A stretch of DNA of 21,899 nt from a virus. How positions within the stretch are numbered: position 1 is the first letter of the stretch; every line of letters starts with the position of its first letter. The translations under genes were made by a program, and so were the position numbers. The stretch lies in IMG/VR virus record IMGVR_UViG_3300010885_008494, positions 1 through 21,899 of that record. One strand, 5' to 3'. The notes below the pieces were generated by a model, which ran no database searches, was not told the DNA's origin, and saw only the letters and a program-made list of their open reading frames with translations. This document shows, in pieces, positions 12,375 to 21,899 of this stretch.

Positions 12375-15044
12375 ATGAGCTATGTAGATGCATGGTTTGA
12401 CCGTGATAACGATGTTATCAAGATTGTCGAACGCAACAAGAAAGGTGAACGTGAGTTTCGTGACATACCTGTCAAACACACATTTTACGTAAAAGACCCT
12501 CGCGGCAAATATCAATCAATCTACGGCGATCAACTCACCAAGATTGTCTGTAAGAATACCAAAGAACTCCGTAAAGAACAAGCCATTAACAGTGGCAAGG
12601 AACTGTACGAGAGTGATATCAATCCCATATTTTCCACACTGAGTGAACACTATCTCAATCAGGATCCTCCCAAACTGAATGTGGCATTTTTCGACATTGA
12701 GGTAGACTTCGATCCAGAACGTGGTTATGCAAGTCCCGACGATGCGTTCATGCCAATCACCGCTATTGCTGTGTACTTGCAGTGGATGGAAACAATGGTA
12801 TGTTTGGCCATTCCTCCTAAAGGTCTAGAAATGGATGCAGCCAAGGAAATGGTCAAAGACTTTCCCAACACATATTTGTTTGATAACGAAGCAGACTTGT
12901 TGGATATGTTTTTAGATCTGATCAAGGATGTGGACGTTATCAGTGGATGGAACAGCGAAGGGTTTGATATTCCATACACTACCAATCGCGTGATCAAAGC
13001 CTTGAGCAAAGAAGATACCAGACGATTTTGTCTGTTTAATCAATTTCCCAAGCGTCGTGAATATGAAAAATTTGGCCGTAACAGTGTAACCTATGACTAT
13101 ATTGGTCGTGTACACTTGGATTATCTTGAACTGTATCGCAAGTACACCTACGAAGAACGCCACACGTATAGGCTGGATGCCATTGCTGAATACGAGCTGG
13201 GCCAGCGCAAAACCCAATACGAAGGCACCTTGGACCAACTGTACAACAATGACTTTCGAACATTTGTTGAATACAACATCAATGACTGCAAACTGTTGGA
13301 CGACTTAGACAAGAAATTAAAATTCATGGATCTAGCCAACACACTGGCACATGAAAATACTGTGCTGTTACAAACCACGATGGGTGCTGTGGCTGTTACT
13401 GAACAGGCTATTATTAACGAATGCCATCGCAGAAGCATGCAGGTTCCCAATCGTGTCAAGATGAGTGAACGTGAAGATCTCGAAGGTGCGGCTGGTGCCT
13501 ATGTTGCTCATCCCAAAGAAGGAATTCAAGACTGGGTTGGTAGCTTGGATATCAACAGTCTATATCCCAGTGCGATTCGTGCGCTCAACATGGGTCCAGA
13601 AACCATTGTTGGGCAGTTGCGTCAAACAATGACCGAAGAATTTATTGAAACACAGATGGCCAAGAATAAATCGTTTGCGGCCGCTTGGGAAGGTAAATTT
13701 GGCACTCATGAATACGAAGCAGTTATGAGCCAAGAGATAGGTACGGACATCACTATCGATTGGGAAAATGGCGACGTTGATGTACTCAGTGCCGCAGAAG
13801 TGTATAGATTAATTTTTGAAAGTAACCAGCCCTGGATGCTTTCGGCAAATGGCACTATCTTCAGCCACGAAAATGAAGGTGTGATTCCGGGGCTACTTAA
13901 ACGCTGGTATGCAGAACGCAAAGAGATGCAGGCCAAACTAAAGGAGTCTATCAATGCAGGAAACAAAATCGAAGAAGAATACTGGGATAAGCGACAGCTT
14001 GTTAAGAAAATTAACCTTAATAGCTTGTATGGTGCTATTCTTAATAGCGGTTGCAGATTCTTTGATAAACGAATTGGACAATCAACAACGCTGGTCGGTC
14101 GCCAGATCGCAAAACATATGGCGTCCAAAGTGAATGAGATCATTACAGGTGACTACAATCACGTGGGCAAAGCAGTTATCTATGGCGATACTGACAGTTG
14201 TTATTTTTCAGCTTACAGCACACTGAAAAAAGATATTGATGCGGGACTTATTCCGTGGACCAAAGAAACTGTTATACAACTGTATGATCAAATCGGAGAA
14301 GAAGTCAACACAACATTTCCTCAATTCATGCTGGATGCATTTCATGTGCCTAAAACCCGTGGCGAAGTTATAAAAGCAGGTCGTGAAATTGTTGCTAGTA
14401 AAAGTTTGTTCATTACCAAAAAGCGTTATGCTGTGTTGTACTATGACAAAGAAGGCAAACGGGCAGACATAGATGGCAAGGCTGGCAAGATCAAGGCCAT
14501 GGGGCTAGATCTCAAGCGCAGTGATACTCCGGAATTTATTCAGAACTTTTTGAGTGATGTACTTGAAATGGTACTGATGGGTAAACCCGAGCAAGAAGTG
14601 TTAGATGCTATCAGTGAGTTCCGTATCAAATTTAAAGCTCGTCCTGGATGGGAAAAAGGCAGTCCTAAACGTGCCAACAATATTACCGAATACGGTGCCA
14701 AAGAAAAGAAACAGGGCAAGACCAATATGCCGGGGCATGTTCGTGCCAGCATCAACTGGAACATGCTCAAGCGCATGTACGATGACAAGTACAGCATGGC
14801 TATCACTGACGGTGCTAAAGTGATTGTGTGCAAACTCAAACCCAACCCGCTAGGCTTTACCAGTGTGGCATATCCGGTAGACGAACTACGATTGCCACAA
14901 TGGTTCAAGGACCTGCCGTTTGACCATGCTGAAATGGAAGCTACCATTATCGATAAGAAATTAGACAACTTGATCGGTGTGCTAAAATGGGATATCAATA
15001 GCACGGAAGAAAAGAACACATTCAACAGTTTATTTGAGTTTTAA
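12375..15044 (+). CDS. 43: T4 gp43-type family B DNA polymerase
   Basis: The 889-residue protein is the replicative polymerase and proofreading exonuclease. Exonuclease motifs are FFDIEVD (Exo I; D107, E109), SGWNSEGFDIPY (Exo II; 190-201, D198) and YNINDC (Exo III; Y300, D304). Polymerase motifs are SLDINSLYPS (A; D392), KKINLNSLYG (B; 544-553) and YGDTDS (C; D605, D607). The C-terminus TFNSLFEF corresponds to the clamp-binding tail of T4 and RB69 gp43. The start has GGAG five bases upstream and a structured leader (12318-12362). All catalytic residues I can check are present, so it should be fully active. It lies between dsbA and a dehydrogenase gene, with the sliding clamp two genes downstream. 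Confidence 0.98.
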   Translation: MSYVDAWFDRDNDVIKIVERNKKGEREFRDIPVKHTFYVKDPRGKYQSIYGDQLTKIVCKNTKELRKEQAINSGKELYESDINPIFSTLSEHYLNQDPPKLNVAFFDIEVDFDPERGYASPDDAFMPITAIAVYLQWMETMVCLAIPPKGLEMDAAKEMVKDFPNTYLFDNEADLLDMFLDLIKDVDVISGWNSEGFDIPYTTNRVIKALSKEDTRRFCLFNQFPKRREYEKFGRNSVTYDYIGRVHLDYLELYRKYTYEERHTYRLDAIAEYELGQRKTQYEGTLDQLYNNDFRTFVEYNINDCKLLDDLDKKLKFMDLANTLAHENTVLLQTTMGAVAVTEQAIINECHRRSMQVPNRVKMSEREDLEGAAGAYVAHPKEGIQDWVGSLDINSLYPSAIRALNMGPETIVGQLRQTMTEEFIETQMAKNKSFAAAWEGKFGTHEYEAVMSQEIGTDITIDWENGDVDVLSAAEVYRLIFESNQPWMLSANGTIFSHENEGVIPGLLKRWYAERKEMQAKLKESINAGNKIEEEYWDKRQLVKKINLNSLYGAILNSGCRFFDKRIGQSTTLVGRQIAKHMASKVNEIITGDYNHVGKAVIYGDTDSCYFSAYSTLKKDIDAGLIPWTKETVIQLYDQIGEEVNTTFPQFMLDAFHVPKTRGEVIKAGREIVASKSLFITKKRYAVLYYDKEGKRADIDGKAGKIKAMGLDLKRSDTPEFIQNFLSDVLEMVLMGKPEQEVLDAISEFRIKFKARPGWEKGSPKRANNITEYGAKEKKQGKTNMPGHVRASINWNMLKRMYDDKYSMAITDGAKVIVCKLKPNPLGFTSVAYPVDELRLPQWFKDLPFDHAEMEATIIDKKLDNLIGVLKWDINSTEEKNTFNSLFEF

Positions 15045-15045
15045 T

Positions 15046-15822
15046 ATGGAAATTATAATTGCAGGATATGGATTCGTTGGCAAGGCTGTTGGCCATGCTA
15101 TAGAAGGTAAAAATATCATACACATAGTTGATCCAAAAATTAACTATAACGTAGTTTCTGATTACAATTATGCAGAAGGTGTTATTATTTGCGTTGGAAC
15201 TCCCAGGAATCAATTTGGCGATTGTGACATTGGGCAGGTCACAAGTGTAATGGATACTGTGCCTGTACAGTTACCTGTGCTGATTAAATCAACCATTCCA
15301 CCCGACTATCTAGAAAAGATTTTAAAACTGTATCCGCACCATAGCATTTGTTACAGTCCAGAATTTCTACGTGCGGCCACCGCTGACACGGATTTTTTAA
15401 ATCAAGAAAACATGATTTTAGGTGGACACGATCCATTTGAAATATGGAGTACCTTGTTTAGGCTTGCATTGCCTAAACTCAAAACTATATTCTATTGTAC
15501 CATTGCAGAAGCCAGTATGTTAAAATATGCTACCAACACATTCTTAAGTGTCAAGGTAACATTTTTTAATCAGTTGTTTGACATGTGCCAAGCCAATAAT
15601 GTTAATTTTGATACTGTAATCAGTTTACTTAAATTAGACGACAGAATTGGAATGAGTCATATGCAAGTACCGGGCCCGGACGGAAGTCGTGGATTTGGAG
15701 GAAATTGCTTTCCGAAAGACACAGAAGCATTTGTTCATTTTGCTGATCGATCCACTGTGTCACACACATTGGTAGAATCGGCAATAAAATACAACAAAAA
15801 GATAAGAAAAATATTGACCTAG
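15046..15822 (+). CDS. UDP-glucose/GDP-mannose dehydrogenase-like protein, short form
   Basis: The ATG at 15046 is one base after the polymerase stop; a TTG at 15034 in the same frame is less likely because it lies inside the polymerase tail. The 258-residue product has a Rossmann GYGFVG at 7-12, SPEFLR at 104-109, the LKYATN helix with K160, and the catalytic-cysteine motif GGNCFPKD at 218-225 (C221). Enzymes of this family oxidise a nucleotide sugar to the uronic acid with two NAD+. Typical members are about 390-450 residues; this one stops shortly after the catalytic cysteine and lacks the C-terminal UDP-binding domain. It may need another subunit or use a different substrate. Position between polymerase and clamp hints at a role in nucleotide or DNA modification, but that is inference. 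Confidence 0.85.
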   Translation: MEIIIAGYGFVGKAVGHAIEGKNIIHIVDPKINYNVVSDYNYAEGVIICVGTPRNQFGDCDIGQVTSVMDTVPVQLPVLIKSTIPPDYLEKILKLYPHHSICYSPEFLRAATADTDFLNQENMILGGHDPFEIWSTLFRLALPKLKTIFYCTIAEASMLKYATNTFLSVKVTFFNQLFDMCQANNVNFDTVISLLKLDDRIGMSHMQVPGPDGSRGFGGNCFPKDTEAFVHFADRSTVSHTLVESAIKYNKKIRKILT

Positions 15823-15842: not shown

Positions 15843-15862
15843 AACACAACATGGAGAATCAT

Positions 15863-16594
15863 ATGAAAGACTTTTTACAAGACCTAGTAGCACATACACA
15901 CAGCTTGGGATTTTTACCTCTGGTAAAAGTCAGTGCAACCAACAAAGACGTCAAGGTTGAATCGATTGCAGAAGATCGTTCAGTAATCTTGAACGCAACT
16001 ACGCACACGCCAGTAGACAATCTCGAAGGCACATTTGGTATGCCGAATCTCAACAAATTAGATTTGCATTTGAAATGCCCTGAATACAAAGAAGGTGCTG
16101 GCATCAGTATTGTTACACAACAAATTAACGGTGAAGATGTTCCTACAGGCTTGCATTTTGAAAATGCCATTGGAGACTATGAAAACAACTATCGTTTTAT
16201 GAATCAGCAAGTGATCAACGACAAAATGAAAACTGTTAAGTTCAAAGGCACAACTTGGGATGTTGAGTTTCAGCCCACTGTGGCAGCCATTCAAAGATTG
16301 CGCTTTCAAGCGGCAGCACATACAGAAGAAACCGTGTTCCAAGTCAAAACAGAAGACAACAATCTAGTGTTTAGTTTTGGTGATGCAAGCACACACGCAG
16401 GTGAGTTTGTATTTGAATCCAATGTTGGCAAAAAGCTGAAACAAACATGGTCATGGCCTGTGCAACAAGTGCAAAGTATTTTGAGTCTCGCTGGCGAATT
16501 GACCATGCGTATTGCAGATGCTGGTGCCATGCAGATCAGTGTGGATAGTGGAACTGCTGTATACGATTACATACTTCCAGCACAAAGCAAATAA
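15863..16594 (+). CDS. 45: Sliding clamp, DNA polymerase processivity factor (gp45-type)
   Basis: An upstream in-frame ATG at 15851 exists, but the ATG at 15863 has GGAG six bases upstream, so the product is taken as 243 residues (T4 gp45: 228). The trimeric clamp encircles DNA and tethers the polymerase; in T4 it also activates late promoters with gp33 and gp55. The sequence has the mixed alpha/beta pattern of the family and the segment NLEGTFGMPNLNKLDL at 53-68, which I recognise from clamps of marine T4-like phages. The C-terminal half has a KQTWSWPV strand and a DAGAMQISVDSG hairpin. Its own sigma-70-type promoter lies just upstream. Downstream, the stop overlaps the next start (TAATG). 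Confidence 0.88.
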   Translation: MKDFLQDLVAHTHSLGFLPLVKVSATNKDVKVESIAEDRSVILNATTHTPVDNLEGTFGMPNLNKLDLHLKCPEYKEGAGISIVTQQINGEDVPTGLHFENAIGDYENNYRFMNQQVINDKMKTVKFKGTTWDVEFQPTVAAIQRLRFQAAAHTEETVFQVKTEDNNLVFSFGDASTHAGEFVFESNVGKKLKQTWSWPVQQVQSILSLAGELTMRIADAGAMQISVDSGTAVYDYILPAQSK

Positions 16595-16773
16595 TGACTG
16601 AACTCCATAAAAGAACTGTAGTCAGAGCAGTAACTTATAGAATTATTGCATTGCTGATTACGGCTCTATGGACCGGATTAAGCAATGCTATAATAATTCA
16701 TGTGATACTAACTGCAATACATTATGCACACGAACGGGTATGGTTAAAAATAAAGTGGGGTCGAATTGAATAA
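16594..16773 (+). CDS. Small DUF2061-type membrane protein (59 aa)
   Basis: An ATG at 16594, overlapping the clamp stop as TAATG, opens a 59-residue frame. The product begins MTELHKRTVVRAVTYRIIA, has two hydrophobic segments (about 17-27 and 31-41) and ends with HYAHERVWLKIKWGRIE. The KRT start, the YRIIA/TWRIIA-type first helix, the HERVW motif and the WGR ending are those of the DUF2061 family of small inner-membrane proteins, whose function is unknown. It fills the gap between clamp and the next gene and overlaps the latter by eight bases, so it is probably translated as part of that unit. Confidence 0.82.
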   Translation: MTELHKRTVVRAVTYRIIALLITALWTGLSNAIIIHVILTAIHYAHERVWLKIKWGRIE

Positions 16774-18448
16774 GAACTTAACAGCACATCAAAGCGATTA
16801 CGCATATTTCCTGCCGGCAACGTCTGGGTTTTATAGTACCTATATAGGTAAACAGCGTTATAGCAATTATGTAGATCCTGCACGTATTCCTGCCAGCTTT
16901 GGTCCTATGGGCATTGAAGCAATGAATTATTTGAATCCCAATGCGGCGTTCTATTTTGATCATTGCTTATATTCAGCTGGACATGCCAACTTAGATTTGA
17001 CCAAACCTGATCCAAGTGAAGACATGTTCCGTAATAGAGATCGATCAACCAGTTGGGTGTTGGGTGATTCTGGTGGATTCCAGATTGGTAAAGGTGTATG
17101 GGAAGGCGAGTGGAATGACCCAACAGGGCCAATAGTTGCACAACGTATGGCCGAAGCTGTTGCCAAAGGCGTTGAACACGTGCCAATACTAAAAGATGAT
17201 GGTACACCTAAACATGACAAACATGGCAATACCAAAATGCTCAAGATTGATCATGTTAAAATTTATCAAGCCAAACTAGATGCGGCACAAAAGAAACGCG
17301 AACAAGTACTAGCATGGATGGACGCATTAATGGACTATGGCATGGTACTTGATATTCCAGCATGGGTTGGTCGTAGCCCAGTAGGTGCTAAAAATAGTTG
17401 TATTAGTGATTATGATCAAGCAGTTGAGGCCACAAAATACAACAACAATTATTTTATCAAGCATCGTACAGGTGCCTGCAAGTTCTTGAACGTGTTGCAA
17501 GGTGAGAATCACGGGCAAGCAGAAGATTGGTATCAGAAAATGAAAGAATTTTGCGATCCAACAAAGTATGATAAACCGTTTAACGGTTGGGCTATGGGTG
17601 GACAAAACATGTGTGATGTCGAACTCGTACTAAAAAGATTAGTAGCATTGAAATTCGATGGACTTCTTGAAAAAGGTCATCAGGATTGGATGCACTTCCT
17701 AGGCACTAGTAAATTAGAATGGGCACTCCTGCTAACAGACATCCAACGTGCGATAAGGAAATATCACAATGAAGACTTTACCATATCTTTTGACTGCGCC
17801 TCGCCTTTTCTGGCAACAGCAAATGGACAGATCTACGTCCAAACAGAAATTACAGACAGACAAAAATGGCTCTATCGCATGTTGCCAAGTGTTGACGACA
17901 AAAAATACGCCAACGACACACGACTGTTCAAAGACGCAGTAGTACAAGACAAATGGTTTGACAATTTTGAATCCAGTCCTCTGATGGATGGAGTGGCAAT
18001 CAAAGATATTTGCATATATGCTCCCGGCGACCTAAATAAGATAGGTAAAGAAGGACGTACCAGTTGGGATAGCTTTACCTATGCCATCATGATGGGCCAT
18101 AATGTATGGATGCATATCAATAGTGTACAAGAAGCCAATCGTCAATATGATGCTGGCTTGTGTCCTGATATGCTAGTGGATGAACAGTTTGATAGGATTT
18201 ATTTTAAAGATGTAGCGGATCTGATATTTTCTAGAGATACCAAAGAAGAAGCGGATGCAATTATTGAAACATTTAAAAAGTTCTTTATGAGTATTCCTGG
18301 TACTAGAGGTTATACAGGTAAACGACTTATTAATTCAAATACCATGGCCGAAGAACACTTTGATATTGACATAAATTTAACTATCGAAAAAGCAGTTGCA
18401 AAAGAAGCACATAAACCCGTACTTAACGAATCACTATTTGAGTTTTAA
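16766..18448 (+). CDS. dpdA: TGT/DpdA-like base transglycosylase with polymerase-like clamp-binding tail
   Basis: The 560-residue protein has the signature residues of tRNA-guanine transglycosylase in order: DSGGFQ at 101-106 (base-recognition aspartate), LDIP with D196, LQG at 244-246, AMGGQ at 276-280 (TGT has a GG here), FLGT at 311-314 and SFDCASP at 341-347, where D343 corresponds to the nucleophile. TGT swaps guanine for a 7-deazaguanine; phage DpdA enzymes do this in DNA. The four zinc ligands of bacterial TGT are not seen. The last five residues, SLFEF, equal those of the DNA polymerase. The start is TTG with GGGG five bases upstream, because no ATG lies before residue 48. A tRNA-acting enzyme is the alternative, but the clamp-like tail favours DNA. 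No preQ0 synthesis genes are in this window. Confidence 0.8.
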   Translation: MNKNLTAHQSDYAYFLPATSGFYSTYIGKQRYSNYVDPARIPASFGPMGIEAMNYLNPNAAFYFDHCLYSAGHANLDLTKPDPSEDMFRNRDRSTSWVLGDSGGFQIGKGVWEGEWNDPTGPIVAQRMAEAVAKGVEHVPILKDDGTPKHDKHGNTKMLKIDHVKIYQAKLDAAQKKREQVLAWMDALMDYGMVLDIPAWVGRSPVGAKNSCISDYDQAVEATKYNNNYFIKHRTGACKFLNVLQGENHGQAEDWYQKMKEFCDPTKYDKPFNGWAMGGQNMCDVELVLKRLVALKFDGLLEKGHQDWMHFLGTSKLEWALLLTDIQRAIRKYHNEDFTISFDCASPFLATANGQIYVQTEITDRQKWLYRMLPSVDDKKYANDTRLFKDAVVQDKWFDNFESSPLMDGVAIKDICIYAPGDLNKIGKEGRTSWDSFTYAIMMGHNVWMHINSVQEANRQYDAGLCPDMLVDEQFDRIYFKDVADLIFSRDTKEEADAIIETFKKFFMSIPGTRGYTGKRLINSNTMAEEHFDIDINLTIEKAVAKEAHKPVLNESLFEF

Positions 18449-18697
18449 ATGACACTACCTGATGAACGATATCGTGCTGTAATGGAAACTAAGAAGTTTC
18501 TATTATCCATTCTAAACACCAGAAGCGGATTGTCAAAAGACATGAAAGAACAAGCTAGATGGTGCTTGAGACATTATCCTAGCGAATACGATATGGATCG
18601 TGCCTCCGAGGGCTCACCTGACGTCTTTCAAAGACGTATGGAAGATGTAACCCGTATGTTCAAAGCCTATGAGGAAAAGAAAAATGAACAAGCGTAG
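18449..18697 (+). CDS. BPSL0761-like small protein of unknown function (82 aa)
   Basis: The 82-residue product begins MTLPDERYRAVMETKKFLLSIL and continues with ARWCLRHYPSEYDMDRAS. The spacing of ERYRAV, FL, ARxxLRHYP and YDM fits the BPSL0761 family of short bacterial and phage proteins as I remember it; no function is known for that family. It is entirely helical by eye, with a charged C-terminal end (EEKKNEQA). The ATG directly follows the stop of the transglycosylase gene and the 3' end overlaps the next gene by 14 bases, so it is part of the same unit. Confidence 0.78.
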   Translation: MTLPDERYRAVMETKKFLLSILNTRSGLSKDMKEQARWCLRHYPSEYDMDRASEGSPDVFQRRMEDVTRMFKAYEEKKNEQA

Positions 18698-19577
18698 TTT
18701 GGTAATTGGTATGGGTATCGGTCAGTTATACAAAACTGTTTTGACCGATCTGGGACATGAGGTGGTCACTGTGGATCGCGATCCTAGCAAAGGTGCAGAT
18801 TTTGAGTCAGTTGATGTGGCCATTATAACTCATGGTGCATTTGATACTGTGCATATTTGTACACCCAATTTCACACACTTTGATATTGCTACCAAAGTGG
18901 CAAAACATGCCAAGATAGTATTCATTGAAAAGCCAGGTGTAAGTACAAGTAGAATATGGGAAACGTTGGTTAAGACATTTCCCAACACACAGTTCATGAT
19001 GGTTAAAAACAATCAGTGGCGTGATAACATTGTAGACCTAATCAAACTTACAGAGAAATCCAAGAGTATAGAAATACGTTGGCACAACAAGGATCGTGTA
19101 CCCAATCCTGGCACATGGTTCACTACCAAAAAATTGTCATTTGGTGGTGTCAGTCGAGATTTGATGCCTCACTTGCTCAGCGTGTTCATGGTGTTGGAGC
19201 CCTACTATAAAACAGCCACGCCCACATTGCGGGTGGCCACACAGGATTGGACATTGAAAGATGTTGCCGATACAGATTATGGCACAGTTAACGCAGATGG
19301 CACATATGATGTAGACGACAATTGCTGTTTGGGATTTGTGTGTAACAATCGAGTATGGATGTTGAGTGCAAATTGGCGCACATTACAAGAAGACGACCGT
19401 GCCATTGTCTTTACCATGCAGGATGATAGTCAAGTTCGGGTAGAATTAGGACTTTGTCCAGAACAAGCATATCAAACCATGATACAAGATGCATTACTAA
19501 GCTACTACGAATCAACGTTTTGGAACAAGCAACTGACTCAGGACCTATGGATACACGAACAAATAGAAAATATATGA
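18684..19577 (+). CDS. Gfo/Idh/MocA-type NAD(P)-dependent oxidoreductase
   Basis: The frame opens at 18669, but the ATG at 18684 is preferred: an AGGAAAA precedes it and the protein then starts MNKRSLVIGMGIG, directly at the Rossmann fold. In the 297-residue product the dinucleotide site is GMGIG at 9-13, DR at 31-32 ends the second strand, VHICTPN at 56-62 is the family's CTPN-type motif, and IEKPG at 81-85 is the EKP motif near the catalytic centre. Family members oxidise or reduce sugars and similar polyols. A large C-terminal domain follows, with several Trp residues. The substrate is unknown. The gene overlaps the next by four bases (ATGA), so the two oxidoreductases are coupled and may act in one pathway. 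Confidence 0.83.
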   Translation: MNKRSLVIGMGIGQLYKTVLTDLGHEVVTVDRDPSKGADFESVDVAIITHGAFDTVHICTPNFTHFDIATKVAKHAKIVFIEKPGVSTSRIWETLVKTFPNTQFMMVKNNQWRDNIVDLIKLTEKSKSIEIRWHNKDRVPNPGTWFTTKKLSFGGVSRDLMPHLLSVFMVLEPYYKTATPTLRVATQDWTLKDVADTDYGTVNADGTYDVDDNCCLGFVCNNRVWMLSANWRTLQEDDRAIVFTMQDDSQVRVELGLCPEQAYQTMIQDALLSYYESTFWNKQLTQDLWIHEQIENI

Positions 19578-20473
19578 TAGTTAACTGTTTGCAAACAACT
19601 GGACAAGGGCAGTTCGAAGAGGTTGAGTACAGCAAACCCGATCCCGAACCTTATGAGATTGAAGTCCGTGCTGTTATGACCGGTGTGTGTCGTAGTGACA
19701 TCGACATGATGCAAGGTAATTTTGGTCCATTACCGTTGGGTATGCAAGGTCATGAAGGTATTGGACAAGTAACACGTATCGGTTCTAGTGTAGTGACCAC
19801 CCAGATTGGTGCGTATGTTGCTACTCGTGGCGAACCTGCTTATGCAGACTATTATAATGTACGCATGGATGAGTATGTGGAGATTCCAGAAGCACATCCT
19901 CGCTATATTTTAGAGCCTGTGGCTTGTGGTATTAATCTTATTAATCAAGCCAAAGATTTAATTGAATCAAAACAAGGTGTGGAAAGCAAAATGCTTATTT
20001 TAGGCAGTGGTTTTCTTGCATGGGTCGCTTACCACACTATGCGTTTGAATGGTTATATCTATCAAGTGGATGTATTAGGGTCTAATAATTTAGAACTTTG
20101 GGGTGATCGGTTACTACTTGGTACTAGTTTAAGCTATGATGTAGTTGTAGATGTTAGTGGAAAATATGAGCTAGGTACAGATATTAACCTAAATAATGAT
20201 GCCCTTGTTATAGATGCTGTTGGTAAGACTATTAATAAAGCAGAAGCAGAATATTTGCTTTGGAAAGCTGTCACTACTGTAAGACCCAGTCCGAGAAACA
20301 AACACTTTATCGACTGTATGCACTTTGCACGTCATTGGATTGAAAACGGTTATCTTGAGGTTGATTCATTCTGGACACAGTGTTACAATCGTACTACTGA
20401 ATGGCAACAAGCGTTTGCGGATGGTGTGGATCGTCCGAACGGTTACAGTAGAGGTTATATCAAATGGGACTAA
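19574..20473 (+). CDS. Zinc-alcohol-dehydrogenase-like (MDR) protein
   Basis: The longer frame from 19454 overlaps the previous gene by over 120 bases, so the ATG at 19574 (ATGA overlap) is taken as the start. The product is 299 residues, shorter than the usual 340-350. The catalytic zinc region has GVCRSD (C39) and GHEG (H60, E61), and LEPVACG at 113-119 matches the conserved downstream site. The NAD(P) site is LGSGFLA at 143-149, one glycine short of the usual GxGxxG. The four-cysteine structural zinc lobe is absent. Family members interconvert alcohols and carbonyls, often on sugars or amino acids. Coupling to the Gfo/Idh/MocA-type gene suggests a two-step conversion of an unknown sugar-like substrate. 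Confidence 0.82.
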   Translation: MIVNCLQTTGQGQFEEVEYSKPDPEPYEIEVRAVMTGVCRSDIDMMQGNFGPLPLGMQGHEGIGQVTRIGSSVVTTQIGAYVATRGEPAYADYYNVRMDEYVEIPEAHPRYILEPVACGINLINQAKDLIESKQGVESKMLILGSGFLAWVAYHTMRLNGYIYQVDVLGSNNLELWGDRLLLGTSLSYDVVVDVSGKYELGTDINLNNDALVIDAVGKTINKAEAEYLLWKAVTTVRPSPRNKHFIDCMHFARHWIENGYLEVDSFWTQCYNRTTEWQQAFADGVDRPNGYSRGYIKWD

Positions 20474-21003
20474 ACACTGAACAACGACAAGACGTCGTTT
20501 ACTTTACAGGTTATGAAGTCGAACATACAGTGTGTTATGGCATGTACACATTGTTTGTGGTTGGTACTCCCACTCTTGAAGAAATCTTGCGTAAGGCAGA
20601 TGATACTCAAGCATACTTAGATGAGTCTAAACGTATTCGACACATTTACTTTGGCACTAGTCAGAGTTTTAATCCTAAATCAATCAGCCACGAAGAATAT
20701 CGAGCGTGGGACGAAGTTATTATAGGATGCTTGAAAAAAGACTATTGGGTTACTTTAGACTTTGGTGTTGAACATATCGAAGGCATACTGGAGTCTGCCT
20801 ACAACGAATACCCTCGCTTTGTTCCTATGATCAGTGTCAAGTTACCTTACATTAATCAACTCAACTACAATGCCACACTTAAACTGGACGACCGAACTTG
20901 GGGTGCTACCAATCCAGGCGTGTGGACACATCACTTGCAGAGCTTGATGAGTAAAGACAAGTATACTCATTGGGATCAGTACACACAAGATGCAACACTA
21001 TGA
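20464..21003 (+). CDS. T4-like phage protein of unknown function (179 aa)
   Basis: The 179-residue product starts at ATG 20464, overlapping the previous gene by ten bases, with AGAGG nine bases upstream. It is acidic and soluble, with YFTGYEVEHTVCYGMYTLFVVG at the start, RIRHIYFGTSQSFNP in the middle, and VPMISVKLPYINQLNYNATLKLDD toward the end. I recall close relatives in T4-like cyanophages, all without a known function. A mixed alpha/beta fold is likely. Its overlaps on both sides place it in the same operon as the oxidoreductases and the next phage genes. Confidence 0.82.
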   Translation: MGLNTEQRQDVVYFTGYEVEHTVCYGMYTLFVVGTPTLEEILRKADDTQAYLDESKRIRHIYFGTSQSFNPKSISHEEYRAWDEVIIGCLKKDYWVTLDFGVEHIEGILESAYNEYPRFVPMISVKLPYINQLNYNATLKLDDRTWGATNPGVWTHHLQSLMSKDKYTHWDQYTQDATL

Positions 21004-21409: not shown

Positions 21410-21658
21410 ATGGCTAAGAATTATAAAGAGTATGCGTATTTTGAAAACCGCCCGGATGTAGTTAAGATCTTTGATGATCTCGAGGCATTCCATGAATGGT
21501 GTCGTTTTGAAATGGCACCATTTGACGAAAGTCATCTCTACAACAGAGAAAGTTGGGTTTGGCGTAATTTCGATAAGAGCCGCCGTGCTAAAAACGGCAC
21601 AGGTGAACGCAAGCCATATCTGGGTAAAAATCCTCGATATGTTAAAGAGGCAAGATGA
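21410..21658 (+). CDS. T4-like phage protein of unknown function (82 aa)
   Basis: The 82-residue basic protein begins MAKNYKEYAYFENRPDVVKIFDD. It continues with a helix (LEAFHEWCRFEMAPFD), then YNRESWVWRNFDKSRR and a Lys/Arg/Gly-rich C-terminus (KNGTGERKPYLGKNP). A good Shine-Dalgarno (AAGGAAA at 21397-21403) precedes the ATG. The basic tail may bind nucleic acid, which is inference. Similar small proteins occur next to relatives of the previous gene in T4-like cyanophages as I recall, so the block may be conserved. It overlaps the next gene by four bases (ATGA). Confidence 0.8.
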   Translation: MAKNYKEYAYFENRPDVVKIFDDLEAFHEWCRFEMAPFDESHLYNRESWVWRNFDKSRRAKNGTGERKPYLGKNPRYVKEAR

Positions 21659-21899
21659 CAGTCTTTGTTGTCGATTTAGAAGCAGTTGAAACCAGGTACA
21701 CGGGTCAGTGGAAGACCCATGTGCCTGCTTTACTTAAAAAGGCAGGACATAATGTTCAAATTATCGCTGGCCCTGAGGATATTCCTACAGCCACTACTCC
21801 TGGTGCTTTTCTTAATTTTGGTGGCACCAATATATACAAGTCTAGTCAAGTTGAACAAATGGGCCGTTTATTTTGTAGCGGATCCGTTCATCCCGGCGA
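21655..21899 (+). CDS. T4-like phage protein, N-terminal part only (cut by window end)
   Basis: An ATG at 21655, in an ATGA overlap with the previous stop, opens a frame that runs to the end of the window (81 complete codons). The product begins MTVFVVDLEAVETRYTGQW and continues with LLKKAGHNVQIIAGPEDIP and FLNFGGTN. The first part resembles the N-terminal strand-helix-strand of a Rossmann-type fold, as in some glycosyltransferases, but too little is present to decide. I recall relatives in T4-like cyanophages without a known function. Confidence 0.78.
   Translation, partial: MTVFVVDLEAVETRYTGQWKTHVPALLKKAGHNVQIIAGPEDIPTATTPGAFLNFGGTNIYKSSQVEQMGRLFCSGSVHPG

Follow-up and report, generated by a model that had tools for sequence, protein, structure and literature searches.

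Two questions can be asked of the DpdA enzymes, namely how they pick phage DNA over host DNA or tRNA and when they act relative to replication. In eukaryotes, DNA modification is coupled to replication through the interaction of DNMT1 with PCNA via a PIP motif; this is methylation by an unrelated enzyme, and it serves here as an analogy only. The core of the PCNA-interacting (PIP) box is h-x-x-[L/F]-F, and the bacterial beta-clamp box is QLxLF.

Phages 9g and CAjan carry the DNA transglycosylase DpdA1, and DpdA2 is known from phage nt-1 and its relatives (Hutinet et al. 2019, PMC6884629). In nt-1 DNA, dPreQ0, dADG and dG+ reach no more than about 0.1% of G (PMC6884629), and a deazaguanine system was noted earlier in PA5oct (PMC7824862). 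In T4 the C-termini of gp43 and gp55, which end in SLDFLFG and SLDFLYEAND, respectively, are proven and interchangeable epitopes for the gp45 clamp (PMC2988020), in agreement with what an earlier sequence-only reading of the present locus had stated about gp43 and other clamp clients. The T4/RB69 epitopes of gp43, gp55 and gp33 are like the peptide described below in being short, hydrophobic-acidic and C-terminal, that of gp55 sitting on a flexible linker (PMC2988020), but they belong to a polymerase and to transcription factors, none of which modifies bases. A phage DNA-modifying enzyme on a sliding clamp is nevertheless known, as the T4 alpha-glucosyltransferase binds gp45 (Sommer 2004; PMC13216743, PMC6024577). 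Its chemistry is different, and a gp43-like tail, when sought, was absent from its C-terminus (KEQFDIITK), so that its contact with gp45 is probably of another kind.

The DNA analysed here, referred to as the window, is an IMG/VR fragment of 21,899 nucleotides (21.9 kb) from a freshwater phage, with the gene order polymerase, UDP-glucose-dehydrogenase-like gene, clamp, DUF2061-like gene and a 560-residue enzyme. The family B DNA polymerase (12375-15044, 889 residues) matches PF00136 (E 4.6e-38) and phrog_262 (E 7e-197). The sliding clamp (15851-16594, 247 residues) was modelled with AlphaFold at a pLDDT of 91.5 and its top Foldseek matches were PCNA (E 3e-11), so the clamp gene that the sequence-only reading had named does encode a PCNA fold. 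Between the clamp and enzyme genes lies that of a DUF2061-like small membrane protein (16594-16773; PF09834, E 0.005, under the cut-off), whose stop overlaps the enzyme start and which is found in 26 of 64 close relatives. The enzyme gene spans 16766-18448 and has a TTG start. These four genes, and the motifs located within them below, are on the + strand.

The product of 16766-18448 is, by its model and by profile comparison, a TGT-fold base transglycosylase distantly related to the phage DpdA2 proteins. No match to it was found in Pfam, PHROGs, PADLOC, NCBIfam or the PDB sequences, and its identity thus rests on structure and profile comparison. The AlphaFold model, built from a 48-sequence alignment, has a pLDDT of 88.1 and a pTM of 0.85, and in a Foldseek comparison with the PDB only TGT structures occupied ranks 1-34 (E between 1e-7 and 1.5e-4; prob 1.00). 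The TM-scores against these structures were modest (0.3-0.5), which points to a diverged TGT member. The comparison of the enzyme family with a DpdA2 profile by hhalign gave a probability of 92% and an E of 7.5e-7 over the catalytic core; this needed alignment against alignment, the single nt-1 DpdA2 sequence giving a weak match. With the window protein as query, tblastn recovered no DpdA2 of nt-1 and relatives, and IMG/VR scans with the Vibrio 2.275 or the PA5oct enzyme alone returned nothing. The DpdA2 of ACP17 matches TIGR00449 with a score under that model's cut-off. The assignment as DpdA-like made in the sequence-only reading agrees with both the structural and the profile matches, although the profile search that it proposed was successful against DpdA2 and not against the curated libraries.

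The TGT-type signatures on which that assignment was based are all present in the ORF, namely DSGGFQ, the TGT substrate-pocket motif (residues 101-106, 17066-17083), VLQG (243-246), MGGQ (277-280) and SFDCASP (341-347, 17786-17806). In 48 sequences D101, S102, G103, G104 and Q106 of the first motif and S341, F342, D343, A345, S346 and P347 of the last are invariant, as are G246 and G279; the roles of D101, D343, G246 and G279 were assigned by motif rather than by superposition. We take D343 to be the nucleophile (cf. D280 in the TGT of Z. mobilis). The zinc pattern CxCxxC..H is not evident in the enzyme sequence; Cys 416 is conserved in a 12-sequence alignment, and H445 and H450 are invariant in the 48 sequences. 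DpdA2 has a similar TGT-like core in which the motifs DSGG, QG, H-LG and S[FY]D are collinear. The window enzyme differs from it in being longer (560 versus ~460 residues), in having relatives that often carry an acidic extension after the tail, and in that its gene adjoins those of the polymerase and the clamp.

The enzyme ends in a tail predicted to be disordered (residues 515-560, 18308-18445; pLDDT below 50 at 515-530 and 532-560), and the last six residues of this tail, ESLFEF (18428-18445), form a putative clamp-binding, PIP-like peptide. The polymerase ends in NSLFEF (15024-15041), likewise a putative clamp-binding peptide and comparable with the SLDFLFG of T4 gp43. The translated C-termini are NESLFEF and TFNSLFEF, respectively, which confirms the five shared residues that were first noticed in the sequence-only reading; from composition, the chance of another SLFEF end among the 16 window genes is about 6e-6. 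The same reading had pointed to a match of the DNA ends over 14 bases. The match is there (TATTTGAGTTTTAA at 15031-15044 and 18435-18448), but it is incidental: a DNA-level repeat between the ends of the polymerase and enzyme genes was considered and dropped, as in relatives (L002, L121, L123) synonymous sites differ while the peptide stays.

The survey of tail endings covered the window and its first 80 relatives, with 7,386 closed ORFs in all. A C-terminal [LFIM]F[ED][hydrophobic] was found in two families only, i.e. the polymerase and the enzyme. The polymerases of these 80 relatives have TFNSLFEF as a near-invariant end, whereas the C-terminus of most of the enzymes is acidic and unrelated to it. 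A survey of homologues for the SLFEF tail had been proposed beforehand, and most of them lack a literal terminal SLFEF but carry an equivalent motif internally, about 25-40 residues upstream of the end and ahead of the acidic extension (for example MFSTLFDEVEED... and QNTFGSLFSFEEV...). The first survey had suggested that the tail was a rare quirk of the window, a view that was dropped once the internal copies were seen. In homologues with the motif at the extreme C-terminus, which are the minority, the internal copy is absent. Nearly all of the ~160 distinct homologues have an hxx[L/F]F-type tail motif, either internal or terminal. Members without a clear motif are L236, L208 and the DpdA2 of pf16 and nt-1, while that of Phosso has only a terminal ...EGLF.

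The terminal or internal state was followed on a tree of the folded core only; it requires 8 changes there, and for 6 of these, the minimum, well-supported branches leave no alternative. The motif thus shifts its position while the peptide persists, as is expected of a selected short linear motif, and the exchange of tails by recombination could have contributed to the shifts. We note that two other ORFs of the relatives have clamp-like ends, L260:17007-17609 (the same as L062:14194-14853) with NYQNLFEETI and L202:12566-13006 with FYSLFEEQE. A search by tail for other clamp clients in two long genomes gave the polymerase as the only clear case.

A likeness of only five residues may be thought a matter of chance or composition, hydrophobic-acidic short tails being common. 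The [LFMI]F core is found in the enzyme tail of 156 of the 161 distinct pairs, and yet the bare [LFMI]F is also present in 57% of shuffled tails, so that a count of it discriminates too poorly. It was replaced by a score of each phage's polymerase hexapeptide against the tail of its own enzyme, calculated over 13 enzyme clusters with less than 50% identity. The mean score was 19.15 for the own pairs, 13.14 for re-paired ones (p=5e-5, the lowest value that 20,000 permutations can give) and 9.47 when the tails were shuffled. Re-pairing within groups gave p=0.0016 for the DpdA2 group and p=0.0025 for the group of the window. The first hydrophobic position of the core (L or F) tracks the polymerase as well (Fisher p=0.02 for the 13 clusters and 0.0018 at the 70% level; the value over all pairs, 2.6e-12, refers to pairs that are not independent). 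Moreover, the median enzyme score is reached by only 2% of the other ORF tails of the same loci. The co-variation of the two tails, set in advance as a test by the sequence-only reading, is hence found both overall and within groups: the enzyme tail motif resembles the end of the phage's own polymerase. The own-polymerase matching and the re-pairing and shuffled-tail comparisons contradict a chance origin, which we regard as extremely improbable.

The correspondence can be read directly from individual pairs. At locus L178 an enzyme with TFGSLFSF is paired with a polymerase that ends in TFGSLFSFD. Among isolates, the enzyme tail and the own polymerase tail are TTLDELFE and SLDDLFE in Acidovorax ACP17, QSLEELFG and SLESLFG in Xanthomonas X1, NSLDDLFG and SLEDLFGW in Stenotrophomonas IME-SM1, and ASLDSFFD and TLDDFFS in Synechococcus BUCT-ZZ01, i.e. 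a gp43-like tail occurs in the DpdA2 of all four. Vibrio 2.275 has NNDLFGW and NTDLFDW. The motif is internal in the enzymes of PA5oct (FNSLFDV, own polymerase FDSLFGW) and Vibrio KVP40 (DLSAFFGG, own polymerase TLESFFG). The Schizotequatrovirus DpdA2s offer a natural pair with and without the motif: DLS[AS]FF is inserted in L284 (KVP40), L267 (VH7D) and L283, and it is wholly absent in L263 (nt-1). The nt-1 DNA is modified at a low level although its DpdA2 has no copy of the tail, so that a tether is not essential for activity.

The partner of the tail may be asked for next. The clamp loader, SSB or a host factor could also be common to the polymerase and the enzyme, and the T4 clamp loader does use the same face of gp45 as the clamp clients (PMC2988020). 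Against such a partner, the same type of peptide binds gp45 in T4 gp43 and gp55 (PMC2988020). The tail moreover fits the PIP core h-x-x-a-a, and among bacterial homologues in GTDB the motif accompanies phage polymerase and clamp: it is present in 6 of 6 homologues whose contigs also encode a phage polB and clamp, versus 13 of 43 elsewhere by a loose pattern (p=0.0019), a contrast that is only indicative, as the 13 matches lie mostly in an apparent folded helix. We therefore hold a partner other than the clamp to be quite unlikely, and consider the putative tethering of the enzyme to the clamp well supported by the sequence comparisons. The GTDB loci L304-L352 carry enzyme homologues in Limnohabitans, Novosphingobium, Sphingomonas and others, with no phage polymerase or clamp nearby.

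The DpdA1 proteins (9g/CAjan type) form a separate sequence family and occur in phages whose clamp is of the beta type. Among 74 distinct sequences, [L/F]F is the exact end of 65 and lies at most six residues from the end in another 6, and 3 have LY. The consensus of the tail is Q-E-L-F, after a hypervariable linker, and the clamp gene is found on the same strand within 1.5 kb in 82 of 83 loci, with a median gap of 1 bp. Unlike the tail of the window enzyme, the DpdA1 tail is no copy of the polymerase tail; it resembles the beta-clamp box, and so does the end of the Roseophage R5C DpdA (QVSLF), which fits it. No similar tail was seen in the sampled DpdAs of mycobacteriophages TA17A and Hilltopfarm or in that of Cellulophaga phiSM. 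On balance we lean towards the view that DpdAs repeatedly gained tails fitting their own clamp, PIP-like ones for PCNA-like clamps and QELF or QVSLF for beta-type clamps; replication-coupled base replacement would then be the rule in such phages, perhaps followed, in the group of the window, by glycosylation of the inserted base by the neighbouring GT-B protein.

Genes for 7-deazaguanine synthesis, with FolE, QueD and QueC known as companions of DpdA2, accompany the enzyme in many of the longer relatives. Among 30 long enzyme-bearing contigs, FolE was found in 22, QueD in 12 and QueC over the cut-off in 1; the window fragment stops short of that region. In the one contig examined closely, the ORF after FolE is a QueE-like radical-SAM one, and weak radical-SAM matches lie near FolE in several others. 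One QueE-like radical SAM protein (L261:3378-4229) has about 30 extra residues within the cysteine motif (CNFSC...GCDSY). In Vibrio 2.275, QueF, QueC, FolE and a vitamin-type transporter adjoin the enzyme, and in PA5oct QueE is near it. With QueC nearly absent from the long contigs, candidates for the inserted base are 7-carboxy-7-deazaguanine and preQ0 made by way of the host QueC. As the fold is that of a tRNA-guanine transglycosylase, the enzyme might instead act on tRNA, as in a phage queuosine type of pathway, with a tail likeness that is incidental or serves localisation. Only a slight chance remains for this explanation, less than for a different tail partner, given that the DpdA2 phage nt-1 has dPreQ0, dADG and dG+ in its DNA (PMC6884629), that the gene lies in a replication cluster adjoining polymerase and clamp, and that the enzyme tail tracks that of the polymerase.

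Other neighbours are also conserved. In 107 of the 110 relatives with enough sequence, a member of a GT-B-like family (ETRYTxxW; QETLGIxxxE) is encoded at most 6 kb downstream of the enzyme. In the window this family is represented by a GT-B glycosyltransferase-like protein of the ETRYT..W family that is truncated by the window end (21655-21897, + strand; HMM E 8e-31); further members are L260:18254-19354, L082:9620-10681, L265:2757-3785 and L282:306-1466. In PA5oct, ACP17 and X1 such a gene directly adjoins the enzyme. A 179-residue protein with no family match (20464-21003, + strand) is present in 64 of 64 close and 28 of 28 distant loci. It is possible that the GT-B-like neighbour glycosylates the inserted base, and it may, together with the 179-residue protein (92 of 92 loci), be part of the same system. 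The flanking UDP-glucose dehydrogenase-like (15034-15822), Gfo/Idh-like (18669-19577) and alcohol dehydrogenase-like (19454-20473) genes occur in 60, 47 and 47 of the 64 close loci, respectively, and almost never in the distant clade. In BUCT-ZZ01, a glycosyltransferase-like protein encoded just upstream of DpdA2 (L281:165-1508) has the gp43-like end SLEDFFND, and from this end it may be a second clamp-bound modification enzyme.

Our proposal is that the TGT core of this DpdA2-kind enzyme would swap guanine in DNA for a 7-deazaguanine to whose synthesis both phage enzymes (FolE/QueD/QueE) and the host contribute. The PIP-like SLFEF of the 46-residue flexible tail would dock on the phage PCNA-like clamp at the site of the polymerase tail, and the enzyme would ride the clamps left on fresh DNA, so that the genome is modified during copying. 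In this proposal clamp binding, DNA as substrate, the type of deazaguanine and the timing are what we infer. We consider a clamp-tethered, DpdA2-type replacement of guanine in newly made DNA to be probable in view of the computed TGT fold, the PCNA-fold clamp, the tail disorder, a motif that is conserved, shifts its position and co-varies with the polymerase tail, and the deazaguanine genes of many long relatives. The enzyme might also be bound to the clamp for other ends, such as recruitment at nicks or ends, repair, late-gene complexes or competitive regulation of the polymerase. The T4 clamp clients do include the transcription factors gp55 and gp33 (PMC2988020), and the share of alpha-glucosyltransferase in the modification of T4 DNA was found to be set mostly by promoter strength rather than by clamp binding (PMC13216743). 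Nevertheless, the enzyme is a base transglycosylase whose phages encode deazaguanine synthesis, and DpdA1, from another sequence family, also has a clamp-type tail; such other ends therefore seem unlikely, if worth keeping in mind.

Replication-coupled hypermodification of this kind had been presented in the sequence-only reading as one that it had not seen described. This has to be narrowed, since clamp-coupled modification of phage DNA is not wholly new given the precedent of T4 alpha-glucosyltransferase and gp45. What stands is that no account of a clamp-tethered DpdA, or of the DpdA2 tail, was found in the literature searched, which excluded most subscription journals. A clamp tether, with its docking site borne by the phage clamps at phage forks, would explain both how DpdA enzymes choose their target and when they act, and clamp tails may be worth seeking on further phage DNA-modifying enzymes.
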